Origin: Spizellomyces punctatus DAOM BR117
Taxonomy: Eukaryota; Chytridiomycota; Chytridiomycetes; Spizellomycetales; Spizellomycetaceae
Reading direction: 5' to 3'
Assembly (NCBI RefSeq): GCF_000182565.1
Contig: NW_015971543.1
Coordinates: 1,401,701 to 1,465,700, forward strand
DNA length: 64,000 nucleotides
The notes under the pieces are model-generated. The model was not told the DNA's origin. It saw only the letters and a program-made list of their open reading frames with translations, and made no database searches. Made by a program: the position numbers and the translations under genes. This document shows positions 23,710 through 32,284 of the stretch, in pieces; within the stretch, counting starts at the first letter, position 1; each line of letters begins with the position of its first letter.

Positions 23710-26193
23710 ATGCCGCCCGCGCTTGACACCCACCTCGATGAGGACGAGCTCGCAGAAATTGACTTCTCCGACATTGAAGAGCGATACCGTGTTGATCTTC
23801 CCACCGGCTTCGACACGGTTGTCGTTGTCGACAATGTTCCGGTTGTCGGAGACGCCAAAAGGGAGAAGCTTCTTACCATGATCCGTAAAATGTTTTCGAA
23901 TATGGGAGCGATCAAGGATTTGCATATGCCAACTGACCCGAAAACCGGGGAATCTAAAGGGTTTCTCTTCATTGATTTTGAGACACCTGAAGGAGCGGCA
24001 ATGGCTGTAAGACACGGCAACGGTACACGGCTGGACAAGAGGCACGTCCTTGCCGTCAACCGGTTTGACGATATTGAGACGTACACGAGTGTAAGCGACG
24101 AATATCAAGAGCCCGAAGAGGAACCTTTTGTGGAGAAGGAGTACATGAAGAGCTGGCTCGGGGATCCCCGTGCGCGTGATCAGTGGGTTATGATGAAGGG
24201 AGAAGACGTTAGCATTTACTGGAACAACAAAGGCGAGCAGCCTGATTTGGTGCACAGCAGAAGCGTAAGTTCTTGTCTTTTGCGCTGTACAGCAGCGTGA
24301 ACTGTTGGCTGATACGTATTCAATAAACAGAACTGGTCCGACATGTACGTCTCTTGGTCGCCCAAAGGTACATACCTTGCAACCTTCCACAAGCAGGGTA
24401 TCGTCTTGTGGGGAGGTCCAAGCTGGAGCAAAATCGTTCGATTTCCACATACCAACGTCAAGCTCATCGACTTCAGCCCCAATGAAAAATACCTGACCAC
24501 TTGGAGCCATGAGCCTTTTGTAACTCCTGAAGGAGAGCATCATGTAAGTGATAGATCGTCGTTTTGTTAGTATCTCCGTCAAATGATGATCACACAACAC
24601 ATGAGGAGTTGTATGAGCGCATACCAGCTCCTCGTTGCATGCGAGTAGAGCTATGTCGCGTGGATTATCAAAAAGAACAGAGATCTGATGACATACGCGG
24701 TTATTTCCTATCGCCATTTTCCAAATGAATTAAATCTTGATTCCTTCTAGCACATTGCGATTTGGGATATTGTTACCGGAAGAAAGCTGCGTACCTTCCC
24801 CCTTGAATCGTCAGCGTTAGGTCAACAAGACGGCAAACAGAACACAGTTAAAATTGACTGGCCTATGTTCAAATGGTCTCACGATGACAAGTACGTTGCC
24901 CGTATGTTACCGGACATGATCAGTGTATACGAGACTCCGGGAATGGGTTTGCTGGATAAGAAGAGCTTCAAGGTGCGCCTCAGGATTGCATTTTGCGATT
25001 AACTTCTTCTATAACTGACGTTCTATATGAACAACAGATCCCTGGTGTCAAGTCATTCGCTTGGTCACCCTCCGACCATATTTTGAGCTACTGGACCCCC
25101 GAAAGCGGTAATATCCCAGCGCGTGTCACTTTGACCCAGGTTCCTAGTCGCAACACCGTCCGAACCAAGAATTTATTCAATGTCATTGATGTAAGTATTT
25201 TGCCTTCGTTGGTCGGACCGACAGATTACTCATTGCTGAGTTCAGTGTAAATTGTACTGGCAATCGGCTGGAGACTACCTCCTCGTCAGAGTTGAACGAG
25301 TAAAAACAAAGAAGTCGACCATGACCAACTTTGAGGTGTTCCGCATGCGTGAAAAGGATGTGCCTGTTGACGTGTCGGAGATTGACAGCAACATAGAAGT
25401 TACCAATATCTTCTGGGAGCCAGCAGGGCCGCGCTTTGCGGTACTAGCTCAGGAAGGACAAAAGATTCTATGCAACTTTTATCAAATGGTCACAGCCAAG
25501 GATACGACAGCGGGAAAGAAAGGAGGCCCATCAGCAACTGACCTTGCTCAAGGCGTGAAATTGCTCAAGTCGGTAGATGCAAAGGGCACAAATCAGGTGA
25601 TATGGTCACCGAAAGGACGATTCTGCGTATTAGCGGGTGTTCGGGCTTTCCAAGGAGAACTTCAATTCTGGGATGTGGATGAGCTCATTTTGATGAACAC
25701 TGGCGAACATTACATGTGCACAGACGTTGAATGGGACCCTACTGGACGATACGTAACCACCTCTGTGTCCTGGTGGCGTGTTCAGAGTGATACTGGTTTT
25801 ATCATGTGGACATTTACAGGTCAAGTTCTGGCCAAGCAGAGCGTCCCATTCTTCAAACAATTGTTGTGGCGCCCACGACCACCTATTCTCCTGAGTCCCG
25901 AAAAACAAAAGCAAATACGAAAGAATCTCAAAGAGTACAGCAAGCAATTTGAGGAGGAGGATGCGGCTCAGACTAAAGCCGTCAGTCGGGAAGTGCTCGA
26001 AAAGCGGGTACGCCTTTGGAAGGAGTGGAACGAATATGTCGCTCGTGTGCGGGACGATTACGAACGTGCAAAGGATCTTCGAACCGATATCTGGGGCTTC
26101 GATCCTGAAGAGGTGGATGAAGGAGAAGTTGAGGGTGTTGAGGAATGGGTGGAGGAGATCATTGAAGAAACGGAGGAAATCGTGGAAGACTAG
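23710..26193 (+). CDS. eIF3b: eIF3 subunit b (Prt1-type translation initiation factor)
   Basis: Five exons (23710-24264, 24331-24543, 24751-24972, 25038-25190, 25246-26193) encode 696 residues. The N-terminal RRM contains [11 protein letters not shown] and GFLFIDFE; the WD/beta-propeller region includes [44 protein letters not shown] and [12 protein letters not shown], followed by the eIF3b hallmark FTGQVL with [11 protein letters not shown] and an acidic coiled tail ending [13 protein letters not shown]. eIF3b scaffolds the eIF3 complex on the 40S subunit and takes part in scanning. Introns 1, 3 and 4 are 66, 65 and 55 nt, whereas intron 2 is 207 nt and holds a box C/D snoRNA candidate. It shares a 715-bp divergent upstream region with TOM40. 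Confidence 0.97.
24578..24692 (+). ncRNA. Box C/D snoRNA candidate in eIF3b intron 2
   Basis: Within the only long intron of eIF3b (24544-24750) a perfect C box ATGATGA (24583-24589) and D box CTGA (24685-24688) are closed by a 4-bp stem GTCA/TGAC (24578-24581 with 24689-24692). The D box lies about 45 nt upstream of the probable branch site, as in the three snoRNA-bearing introns near 30.5 kb. An internal hairpin GAGGAG/CTCCTC (about 24603-24633) makes it longer (115 nt) than the others. I could not assign an rRNA target to the sequence upstream of the D box. Confidence 0.55.
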
Positions 26194-28493: not shown

Positions 28494-28839
28494 GGAGACA
28501 ACATTTTGTGAGATTATACTGCATACATTGCAATTCCCAATCTGTACATGGCTTTCTGAATACTTGAGGTCATTCTGCTTGTATTGCTTGATGTCGATTC
28601 CTTTGAACTCTTTCCGACTGTTATGTAATATACTCAGTATGGCGCAGTCATGGTGTAATTTATCCCCAAACGGTCGATCTCCCTCCTTCGTGTTTCTCCG
28701 CTCTTTCGTGTTCGTTTGAGGCTTTTTGTCCGCCAGTGCAGCATGACGCATTAACATCAACAACCTTATTTCAAGCAGACCGCTGTCGCCTTTCATTGAG
28801 TTCACCCCACCAGACGTCCTCTGTATATTCATTGCTATT
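28494..28839. other. Short intergenic spacer
   Basis: No gene seen; it contains the 3' flank of the LEA-like gene and the probable promoter of the DUF1295 gene. Confidence 0.5.
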
Positions 28840-29802
28840 ATGGGCCCCGCTGGAGAGACTCTGCTCACCGTCCTCATTCTGGACTATGCCATTCAGCTCG
28901 CCTTTTACCTGATATCCGCCCCGCTAAAGACAGAAAAGCTGTACGATGCGTCTGGAGCATTGACTTTCTTTGCATGCACGCTCACTGCACTGCTCTGGCG
29001 ACGAGATGGGCAGAGTCTGGACGATTTGTCGGCTAGGCAGATCTTGGTTGCGGTGCTGGTGATCGTGTGGTGCCTGCGACTAGGAACCTTTCTGGCGATT
29101 CGGTGCGTACAGAATTACTCTATATAGTCAGAACTATGTTTATGCTAAGTTCATTTTTCACGTTAGAGTGTCAAAAACAGAGGACAAGCGGTTCGAAAAA
29201 TTCAAACATAACCCGATCAAATTCTCAGTCGTGTGGTTCATGCAGGCATTTTGGGTGTTCATGACCGCCTTTCCAGTTTACATTGTTCTGGGAAACCCTA
29301 GCAAAAGCCAACGATCCTTTGGTGCCTCTGATATTATTGGCCTTATAATTTGGGTGTACGGATTCGTCGTTGAAGTCGTGGCGGATTCCCAAAAGTTTCG
29401 ATTCAAGAACCGCCACCCCAGAGACTTTGTTAGTACTGGCATATGGCGCTACTCTCGCTATGCCAACTACAATGGTGAGATCTTCCTCTGGATCGGAATG
29501 TTTATCCTCTGTGCACGAGGATTTGAAGAAGGGTGGCAGTGGGTCTCGATCATATCCCCGATTTTCGTGGCCTGCTTGATTATCTTTGTCAGTGGGGTAA
29601 AACTGTCCGAGCAAGCGGCGGCGGAAAAGTACGGTGATCGCGAAGGTATGTGAGACGTGGTTGATAGCACTTGAATATTTAACCAAGAACTCATCCAATG
29701 TCTATAGACTATCAATTGTATAGGGCGCAAACGAGTAAATTCTTTTTGTGGCCACCAAAGAACATTAAGTCGAAGGTAACAGACCAACAGGCAGCTGTTT
29801 AG
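28840..29802 (+). CDS. DUF1295 membrane protein (steroid 5-alpha-reductase-like fold)
   Basis: Three exons (28840-29102, 29167-29645, 29708-29802; introns of 64 and 62 nt) give 278 residues. Several membrane helices are visible (LLTVLILDYAIQLAFYLI, ILVAVLVIVWCLRLGTFLAI, FMQAFWVFMTAFPVYIVLG, IIGLIIWVYGFVVEVVADS). The family signature follows: DSQKFRFKNRHP, GIWRYSRYANYNGEIFLWIG and KYGDRE-DYQLYRAQTSKFF, the last completed by splicing. DUF1295 proteins share the C-terminal catalytic fold of steroid 5-alpha reductases and ICMT-like enzymes and sit in the ER; substrates are mostly unknown. Confidence 0.9.
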
Positions 29803-30049
29803 CCATGTACTTAGATCCTGATACGGTTGTTATGCTATAGTCCACGTAGGCCAATAGTGTCGATAAGAGAATAATGATCTTACATACTAGTAAAACTACT
29901 GCGTTTGTTCATGTCTCATACATAAGCTCCCCCATGGCTTGAATTCGCTGTGAATTATGCCGATCATGAGCTGGTTCATGAGATCGGGAGCATATCACGT
30001 GATTGTAGCTGCGCCACACCTTTTATTTCTTTTTAAACGAGCCCATCTT
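29803..30049. promoter_or_regulatory. Probable promoter of the snoRNA host locus
   Basis: A 10-bp palindrome ATCACGTGAT (29994-30003, E-box core CACGTG) and an AT-rich TTTTTAAA element (about 30029-30036) lie just upstream of the inferred first exon. CACGTG sites are frequent in promoters of fungal ribosome-related genes; the assignment is inferred. Confidence 0.35.
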
Positions 30050-30274
30050 CGATCGTAGCTCACTTGTCGTCTTTACCTCCTAGCGGAACTGGTTGGATAC
30101 AAGAGCATCCATGCTTTCCATGTCGCCCGATCCAGATCCTTTCTAGGCGGATATGACGATACTGGAGATAGTATGTGACTCCTGCTTTTGTGTGGATCTC
30201 GCCATCTGCTGGGCACACTTTGCGCTTGAGACCATTGGGTAAGTCCACACATCTGTTTTCTGCCCTGTGCTACC

Positions 30275-30362
30275 ATTTCCATGAGGAAAAGATGACCTAT
30301 ACGATCGGAAAGCCCCATGTCGATATTAGTCATTAGAAAAGTTTCAGCCTTGTCTGAGAAAT
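30275..30362 (+). ncRNA. Box C/D snoRNA, snR41-like 18S guide
   Basis: In intron A. C box ATGAGGA (30281-30287, one change from ATGATGA) and D box CTGA (30354-30357) are enclosed by a 5-bp stem ATTTC/GAAAT. The 14 nt 30339-30352 (AAGTTTCAGCCTTG), one nt upstream of the D box, are a perfect antisense match to the conserved 18S segment CAAGGCTGAAACTT. The rule of the fifth nucleotide upstream of box D picks the first G of AAGG, the residue I remember as yeast Gm1126, guided by snR41. The D box is 48 nt upstream of the branch site. Confidence 0.82.
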
Positions 30363-30501
30363 CGTAGCCTAGAGCTTGAATGTTTGCATATGAGTATCAG
30401 TCGGCTAACGTGTTTGTTTTGTGTACGTTAGAGCGTTGAAAAGGTGATACCTTTCAGCGAAGCGATACTGGTGAGTTGATATTTTTTGTATGGGAGGAAT
30501 T

Positions 30502-30588
30502 GGGGAATGATGAAGTCATATAGACGGGCGGACGGAAAGGTGTCTTACAAGCACCATTTATCATGTCGAATGTCTATTTGCTGACCCT
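30502..30588 (+). ncRNA. Box C/D snoRNA, snR70/SNORD43-like 18S guide
   Basis: In intron B. Perfect C box ATGATGA (30507-30513) and D box CTGA (30581-30584), terminal stem GGGG/CCCT with one G-U pair. An internal D-prime-like box CGGA (30533-30536) is preceded by GACGGGCGG (30523-30531), antisense to the decoding-centre sequence CCGCCCGTC of 18S rRNA. The fifth nucleotide upstream of that box pairs with the C equivalent to E. coli C1402, methylated in yeast (C1639, snR70) and human (C1703, SNORD43). The guide duplex is only 9 bp but is GC-rich. The D guide target is unknown. Confidence 0.75.
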
Positions 30589-30759
30589 TGCGTATTGGGC
30601 GAATTGTCGACTCTCTTTGTTATGAGATACTAATAAGGTCATTCTTCTCGCTCAAAGGTTGACACCTAGATATCACTCGCCGACTGGTGCCTCCGAGATG
30701 TCTTGCCATAGCTTACGGTAAGTGTCTCAAATGTCAAAACTGATGGATGTTGGGTTGGG

Positions 30760-30848
30760 CGCTTTGAAATGATTAGTGCGTTTACGTCTGCAAAGCCAGA
30801 CCAAATCATGGTGAATAAAAAACGTTCGGTTCATCAATGATCAAAGCG
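30760..30848 (+). ncRNA. Box C/D snoRNA candidate, target unknown
   Basis: In intron C. An 8-bp perfect terminal stem CGCTTTGA/TCAAAGCG (30760-30767 with 30841-30848) encloses a C box variant ATGATTA (30769-30775), a D box variant ATGA (30837-30840) and a C-prime-like ATGGTGA (30808-30814) preceded by a possible D-prime CAGA (30797-30800). Length, one-nt spacer between stem and C box, and D-to-branch distance (about 53 nt) match the two neighbours. Neither guide region matches an rRNA sequence I can recall. Confidence 0.62.
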
Positions 30849-31010
30849 AATGGTTTCGGATTGTTTTATAAAACTTTCACTCTGCCTTGTAACTAATGGT
30901 TTCTTGTCTTTCTTTCTTTGAAGCAGGTACGTGGTCAACATTTTGTTGTGATAGTATTAGCTATTAGAGTTTGCAGACACAAATGTTTACAATAAAATGG
31001 ACGAGCTATC

Positions 31011-32284
31011 ACCTGATAAAGCGGACTTGTGTGTGTTTCATCATCTTTTCCCTTGCAGCCCTGTTGGTAGATGCTCGAACCACGACGCTTCCGTCTTGGT
31101 GTACAGCAAAGGAGGCAATACGTTGGTGACAATTCATGGCATAGCTTTGACATTGCAGAGTTACTTGCTGATACCTGAGCGGCGCCATATGGATGTCTTG
31201 GAATTCATTGCATCAAGGGTTCGTTCATGCCCAATCAACTGTAGGTAAAATCTCTTTTGGATTGTGTGATGTAGCGCTGATTGAATGCAACTTCCCCACC
31301 AAGAACCCCTGGACACACGGTTTTTTTTTTTTTTTTTTCAAAGCTTGAGGACCGTTCTGTAGGGATCTTTTAGCGTTATGAAAAGGAATGACTGTCTGGT
31401 AACTCTTGGCTCCGATGGAGACATGGAGGGGAGGCTCACCGCTCTTGTGACTGATCGTTCCTTTGCCTTGCAACTTTATATAAAGATGCATTTGCAAAAG
31501 ACTTACACCATCGCTAGTCTTGACCGGTTCCGTTGATTTCGCCTGACCAAATTCCAGGTAAATTGTTGTTGGATTCTTATTCCCGTCGTGGTAAATGCGA
31601 CTGAAAAGCCCACTTTCGAATTGGAGCCGCTTTTTGTGGAATGCCACAAGTTACTCAAATCATTTTTCTTCTCCTGTCTCTCCCCCCAAAAGCAAACAGC
31701 CCAAAAGCACAGCCAAAAGACAAAAAATCAACATTTGCTCACCTGATGGAGAAATCACTCTTCACCCCACCTTGCCTAATGCAGATTATGTTCACAAAAT
31801 AAACGGGCGAAATAGTCATTTCTTAAAGGTCCCACAAAGTTTTGATGGAACACACAATTGTCCAAAGGTGTGAGATCTTCATCATCTTGCAAAACGCGTT
31901 GAACCGCTAGACTTGTTTTTTTTTTTTTCCTTCTGTGCGTTTCTGGCACACTTCCGCTTCCAAAGGGATTTTGAAGAAGAAAAAATAAAGTGAACAGAAG
32001 GGGGACAAACGGTGCCGCAAAAGGGAAACTCACCACAAAAGAGAAATATATGACTTGTTAAGAAAAAAAAAAACCATAAGTAACATTACTCCCAATGGTT
32101 TTGTTTGAGTTGCAAGCTGTGCAATTGTTTCACTAGTTGAGAGACTGGACCATTTTTCTTTTTATTCCTCTGAACCTCATCATTTCCCCCACGAAACTCT
32201 ACATTCTGGAGGGCTTTTAGTGTGCTTTTTAAGTTTTCTTTATGGACGTTTGTCGTCTACGATAGCCCCTCATCTCCACCAGCT
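31011..32284. other. Unassigned region with poly(T) tracts and a minus-strand open frame
   Basis: A T18 run (31321-31338), a T-run around 31917-31928 and an A-run around 32063-32073 stand out. On the minus strand, 31647-31225 is open for 140 codons and contains a plausible segment (GLFSRIYHDGNKNPTTIYLE) followed by a strong donor GTAAGT near 31510; splicing to an acceptor 63 nt on keeps the frame (SGEPPLHVSIGAKS), but it then runs into the poly(A) tract. I cannot identify a product and leave it uncalled. The 5' part of the Frizzled-like gene follows. Confidence 0.35.

Follow-up and report, generated by a model that had tools for sequence, protein, structure and literature searches.

Between positions 30050 and 31010 of a window of 64,000 nucleotides from the chytrid Spizellomyces punctatus (the window being the whole stretch of DNA that was analysed), there is very probably a spliced, non-coding RNA polymerase II host gene whose three introns each carry one box C/D snoRNA, and these snoRNAs would target 18S G1126, 18S C1639 and a predicted site, 25S G1152. 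A first-pass annotation of this DNA had already proposed a non-coding host with one C/D snoRNA per intron, and this is still the best reading, supported by the analysis described here. The introns, the boxes and terminal stems inside them, the complementarity of the guides to rRNA and the closed reading frames across the exons are directly visible in the letters. How would such a gene work? For the three-intron host, we infer transcription, splicing, processing and methylation in the following way. The non-coding gene would be transcribed on the + strand by RNA polymerase II and then spliced; each intron would be debranched and trimmed by exonucleases back to the terminal stem, until a single box C/D snoRNA is left, shielded by Snu13, Nop56, Nop58 and fibrillarin. 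These snoRNAs would then pair with rRNA and direct 2'-O-methylation of 18S G1126 via the D guide of element 1, of 18S C1639 via the D' guide of element 2, and of 25S G1152 (yeast numbering) via the D guide of element 3. The spliced exons would be by-products.

Anatomy of the locus

All the features of the host lie on the + strand and are delimited by splice signals. Exon 1, predicted from the sequence, is placed at 30050-30238 and runs to the donor GTAAGT, its start at 30050 being the bound adopted in the first-pass annotation. It is followed by intron 1 (30239-30431, 193 nt; GTAAGT...GGCTAAC...TTAG), exon 2 (30432-30470, 39 nt), intron 2 (30471-30657, 187 nt; GTGAGT...TACTAAT...AAAG), exon 3 (30658-30717, 60 nt) and intron 3 (30718-30926, 209 nt; GTAAGT...AACTAAT...GCAG), where each string gives the donor, the branch region and the acceptor, and the branch sites proper are CTAAC, CTAAT and CTAAT. 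A predicted exon 4, or 3' part of the host, occupies 30927-31010 and includes an AATAAA hexamer at 30991-30996. One box C/D element is found in each of the three introns. From the donor to the start of box C, the distances are 42, 36 and 51 nt in introns 1, 2 and 3, respectively; the end of the D box precedes the branch A by 51, 49 and 56 nt, and 74, 73 and 86 nt separate it from the end of the intron. Thus, the three GT-AG introns of 187-209 nt with good branch sites and tiny exons that had been annotated at first pass are confirmed in coordinates and lengths, as is the presence in all three introns of a C/D element whose terminal stem lies one nt from the C box. The spacing of 44-53 nt then given between D box and branch site stands in kind and changes slightly in value to 49-56 nt when counted to the branch A, the earlier range having been counted to a slightly different base. 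In animals, a D-box to branch-site spacing near the one seen here favours the processing of intronic snoRNAs. For Neurospora, it is reported to matter how far an intronic snoRNA lies from the 3' splice site, and distances from the 5' splice site are mainly 41-60 nt (PMC2780460).

Directly upstream of the host, on the same strand, lies a gene for a DUF1295 (steroid 5-alpha-reductase-like) protein at 28747-29802, apparently with introns, whose stop codon is at 29800-29802. When a piece of 179 residues from its product is compared with a Spizellomyces sp. 'palustris' protein, the two are 98% identical in an alignment that covers 90% of the piece; for eight other named chytrids the identity is 57-74%. 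The neighbours on the 3' side of the candidate host are hydrophobic frames beginning at about 32560, which give no Pfam match above the cut-off.

There are also signs of a possible fourth intron at 30927-31058. A donor-like GTACGT stands directly after the GCAG acceptor at 30926, and a T-rich CTTGCAG is found at about 31058; this option implies an exon of zero length, comparable to the juxtaposed introns described in PMC3596301. No convincing C/D element is present in 30927-31058. A candidate for a fourth C/D RNA in 30927-31060 was rejected: the letters resembling boxes C and D are part of a hairpin or adjacent to it, its best rRNA match (10 bp, in the eukaryotic large-subunit rRNA of record L042, introduced below) overlaps the D-like letters, and its fold has a z value of +0.42 against shuffled sequences.

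The three box C/D elements and their predicted rRNA targets

A box C/D guide is expected to form 10-21 bp with rRNA, and its target is the nucleotide opposite the fifth position upstream of box D or D' (PMC2780460). To which rRNA should the guides be compared? In the genome of the organism itself (24.0 Mb in 29 contigs, the scope of all the genome-wide searches), the 5.8S rRNA model found no match among the 39 of 786 candidates that were scored, and neither one 18S word nor one 25S word had an exact match, so that the assembly apparently lacks the rDNA array. Five bacterial genome records containing an 18S word (L038-L042; Blastococcus, Planomonospora and three MAGs) were used as the eukaryotic rDNA reference. 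In the three of them that were run through Rfam, the 18S word lies within eukaryotic rDNA, evidently a contamination of these records. In L041 the eukaryotic 18S is complete, and upstream of it a 5S gene is encoded on the opposite strand; L038 and L041 consist partly of N. In viral contigs the 18S word was absent, and the 30 stretches there with an LSU 15-mer were taken for chance matches.

Element 1 (30275-30362) appears to be a box C/D snoRNA of snR41 type. Its box C, ATGAGGA at 30281-30287, differs by one change from RUGAUGA, its box D, CTGA at 30354-30357, is perfect, and its terminal stem has five pairs, with one nt between it and box C and none between it and box D. The D guide at 30339-30353, AAGTTTCAGCCTTGT, pairs with GCAAGGCTGAAACTT in the 18S of L041; the duplex of 15 bp, including one G-U, falls in the range of 10-21 bp and brings the D+5 base opposite 18S G1126, which is the snR41 site Gm1126. 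The Rfam snR41 model (RF01218) matches the element with 30.6 bits (E 0.0081), below its gathering score of 50, and the Aspergillus Afu_455 model does so with 28.3 bits, also under its cut-off. Since the score is below the gathering cut-off, the element is named snR41-type by its guide and not as a member of the Rfam family. In the search of the whole 24 Mb genome, in which 55 of 1982 first-look candidates were scored, it is the top of the six snR41 places listed (E 0.027), the other five having 21.5 bits each. As a control, the same model at E <= 10 gives matches in nine of 14 prokaryotes (bacteria and archaea), none of them above the cut-off. No complement of at least 8 nt that could serve as a second guide for 18S Am541 was found in 29800-31500. 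Compared with shuffled sequences, the fold of element 1 is at most mildly better (z -2.07).

Element 2 (30502-30588), assigned to the snR70/SNORD43 type by its D' guide, has a perfect box C (ATGATGA, 30507-30513), a perfect box D (CTGA, 30581-30584) and a terminal stem of four pairs, one of them G-U, which is separated from box C by one nt and adjoins box D. Its D' guide, GACGGGCGG at 30523-30531, is followed by an A and then by CGGA as box D'. The D'+5 position is, as the position rule expects, opposite C1639 in the small-subunit rRNA of L041, the snR70 site Cm1639, in a duplex of 9 bp, one below the usual minimum of 10. The Rfam SNORD43 model (RF00221) matches with 18.3 bits (E 1.2), below the gathering cut-off of 45, in an alignment driven by the D' guide segment. 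Among nine weak SNORD43 places in the genome, element 2 ranks seventh, and six places elsewhere score higher (19.3-21.4 against 18.3 bits); these six span 38-61 bases compared with 64 positions in the model, and from scores and spans they were taken for chance. The SNORD43 control at E <= 10 gives matches in 11 of the 14 prokaryotes (bacteria and archaea), again with none above the cut-off. A target of at least 10 bp for the D guide was not found in the references, in which the first third of the LSU is covered by other eukaryotes only, and the fold is at most slightly better than that of shuffled sequences (z -0.62). The support for element 2 is weaker than that for element 1. Together, the guides for Gm1126 and Cm1639 bear out the earlier assignment of the first two elements to the snR41 and snR70 types, in the order known from yeast.

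Element 3 (30760-30848) is a predicted box C/D snoRNA defined by an 8-bp terminal stem and a 14-bp LSU guide. Both boxes, C (ATGATTA, 30769-30775) and D (ATGA, 30837-30840), are one base off the consensus. The stem formed by CGCTTTGA and TCAAAGCG has eight pairs, the strongest of the three, and again leaves one nt to box C and abuts box D. The guide at 30822-30835, whose complement is one nt from the D box, makes 14 of 14 Watson-Crick pairs with GATGAACCGAACGT in a provisional reference sequence of yeast 25S, and is predicted to direct methylation of 25S G1152 in yeast numbering via D+5, the target being the fourth base of GATGAACCG in the LSU. The corresponding segment has one mismatch to the 14-mer in L042, which is LSU according to Rfam, and two in L039, a eukaryotic sequence without an Rfam assignment. 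In both records its distance from the first base of GCAGAACT(G/T)G, which we take to be the snR61/U38 site, is 18 bases, and the predicted G1152 is 19 bases beyond the snR61 site. The 13-mer core of the guide occurs only once in the whole genome. In the yeast table of PMC8307265, Am1133 is followed by Cm1437 without an entry between them, and none of the compared entries in Table 1 of PMC2780460 lies near 1133 of Neurospora 26S, the number that corresponds there to the target of element 3. Rfam gives no match on the + strand of element 3 at E <= 10, and its fold has z -1.17.

What do the altered boxes mean? In the kink-turn of box C/D RNAs, the sixth base of box C pairs with the first base of box D as the first pair of stem II. 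The two changes in element 3 would turn this pair from G-C into U-A, which suggests compensation more than degeneration, as judged from one sequence only and not from a covariation test. The passage on the kink-turn in PMC8413462 describes this structure without that particular pair.

Other C/D-like candidates occur in the window. One on the + strand at 24583-24688 has perfect boxes, a 4-pair stem and a box-and-stem score of 24.9, the same as that of element 3; it is outside any intron frame, and its rRNA complement is shorter than 10 nt or not among the top rows. The other Rfam matches at E <= 10 number nine; they include one to SNORD52 (29867-29917; 16.8 bits, E 2.5) and one to SNORD105, which overlaps element 3 on the minus strand (16.3 bits, E 5.1), and were attributed to chance.

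Chance, decay and other possible hosts

Could the entire arrangement have arisen by chance? By box-and-stem score on the + strand, element 3 is joint first, element 2 third and element 1 fifth, and element 1 drops to ninth when the rows of the - strand are added; taken by themselves, such scores are nothing unusual for a sequence of 64 kb. What distinguishes the three elements from other candidates is the intron frame and the pairing with rRNA. If an intron frame requires a donor before the element and, after it, CTAAY followed by an AG, only three of the 164 C-D pairings with a score of at least 15 (98 on the + and 66 on the - strand) lie in one, all three being elements 1-3, and none of 92 candidates with a score of at least 21 does so in 30 simulated first-order Markov strands of 64 kb, counts that are descriptive because the scoring rules were set after the finding had been seen. 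Exact Watson-Crick complements to 18S and to the 3' two-thirds of 25S, the latter in a partly provisional reference sequence, were sought within 0-2 nt of all 1088 boxes (CTGA or ATGA) that the two strands contain: the longest belong to elements 1 and 3, with 14 nt each, and the next reaches 10, while the maximum in shuffled controls (20 single strands) is 10-13 nt. With no intron-frame case in the simulation and two such complements standing apart from the next best, we give practically no credence to chance as the explanation of the whole. Element 3 taken singly deserves somewhat more doubt, since a degenerate copy, or boxes and a stem that occur together by chance and make no working snoRNA, would account for a C box and a D box that each deviate by one base and for the lack of a same-strand Rfam match at E <= 10. 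However, its 8-bp stem, its placement in the intron similar to that of elements 1 and 2, a perfect 14-nt rRNA complement near the D box that ties for the longest in the window, and box changes that would restore the C/D pair as U-A in place of G-C, all argue against decay, and ATGA has a precedent as box D in fungal clusters (PMC3596301); on balance, an inert element 3 is unlikely.

The host itself can also be questioned. The snoRNA introns might belong to the 3' UTR of the DUF1295 gene, or to read-through from it, and not to a separate gene: that gene is on the same strand, its frame closes near the point where a Spizellomyces homologue ends, and its end is about 250 bases upstream of the assumed start of exon 1. 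However, the donor pattern GTRHGY has no match between 29800 and 30170, so that such a UTR would extend a long way without any splicing before the first snoRNA intron is reached, and the hosts of the related fungal cluster III are non-coding host genes according to PMC3596301. We consider this origin improbable, a little more so than an inert element 3. Still further down stands a protein-coding host with unrecognised short exons, of the kind represented by RPL7 and NOG2, which carry intronic snoRNAs (PMC8476143). A stop-to-stop frame of 95 aa at 30961-31248 could speak for it, but a word-based search of 5.8 billion proteins found no candidate homologue of this frame, it has no Pfam match, and no match at E <= 1 was obtained for the five ORFs, from both strands, chosen among the 59 listed in the region. 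Moreover, when the exons are joined as predicted, there are stops in all three frames ahead of the 95-aa frame, and we regard a coding host as very improbable. That the exons have no shared reading frame, as had been noted at first pass, thus holds for the assumed splicing; a long conserved protein encoded across the exons, which that annotation named among the observations that would speak against its reading, was looked for and is absent from the ORFs examined. The reading of a separate non-coding host with three intronic C/D snoRNAs is the one we follow below.

Relation to cluster III and other snoRNA hosts

The nearest known counterpart is cluster III of fungi, snR41-snR70-snR51, which is intronic in Euascomycetes, Basidiomycota and Rhizopus oryzae and, in part, in other Ascomycota; its hosts have short and even missing exons and yield spliced RNAs with little coding potential, and S. 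cerevisiae and its close relatives have lost the introns, so that the intron-less state is derived (Luo et al., 2013, PMC3596301). The chytrid host carries two of the three members in order. It has in common with cluster III of PMC3596301 the first two guides and their order, an own intron for each, small non-coding exons and the lack of a long shared frame, while in the third place it has a different guide and not snR51. In the yeast table of PMC8307265, Gm1126 is assigned to snR41 and Cm1639 to snR70; yeast snR41 also guides 18S Am541 there, for which element 1 has no guide. The polycistron of S. cerevisiae likewise has two of its three members and their order in common with the host here, and differs from it by being without introns (PMC3596301). 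The first-pass annotation had set introns here against the processed polycistron of yeast. This contrast is not new, an intronic cluster III being already described for many fungi in PMC3596301.

Where, then, is snR51? Neither strand of 29800-31500 holds an exact complement of at least 8 nt to the words around 25S Um2729 or 18S Am100, and element 3 is not snR51-like, its guide being predicted to target another LSU site. One exact pattern run on the genome gave a single place, C6:1139427, with eight matching guide letters before ATGA, which sits inside an open hydrophobic frame and was rejected. The genome may still encode an snR51-type RNA at another place, with a guide or spacing that has diverged.

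Mammalian UHG and gas5 hosts are spliced genes without coding function in which every intron holds a single snoRNA, at a preferred distance from the branch site. This layout is that of the chytrid host, although the snoRNAs are different and the mammalian genes longer. Among fungi, Neurospora crassa has UHG-like hosts with intronic C/D snoRNAs in non-coding genes as here, which were demonstrated with RT-PCR (PMC2780460). Its CD9 is given for 18S Gm1122 only, which equals the D site of snR41, and in this it is like element 1 without the Am541 guide; its cluster III is described with CD9, CD6 (snR51) and CD17 (U45), unlike the host here, and none of the compared entries in Table 1 of that paper is a homologue of snR70 (PMC2780460).

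As for chytrids, none of the papers listed in the literature search describes this locus or a chytrid host of C/D snoRNAs, and a survey of fungal snoRNAomes (Canzler et al., 2018) may cover them. The main text of PMC3596301 has no occurrence of chytrid, Batrachochytrium or Spizellomyces, and a paper on U3 snoRNA mentions Chytridiomycota once (PMC5832005). The present case extends the intronic snoRNA cluster to a chytrid, and it supports the idea that the intronic state is ancestral in fungi and that the yeast polycistron was derived by intron loss. Only tentatively, we would go one step further: an intronic snR41-snR70 pair in a dedicated non-coding gene may predate the split of chytrids, and it may be accompanied here by an undescribed third snoRNA, with co-changed C and D boxes, that would methylate an LSU G unmarked in yeast and Neurospora. 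Do chytrids methylate LSU G1152, and can a box D of the form AUGA function when box C has the matching change? Element 3 poses both questions in a form that can be tested. Hosts of this kind are already known, and what the present gene adds to them is a chytrid example, together with a third snoRNA where cluster III has snR51.
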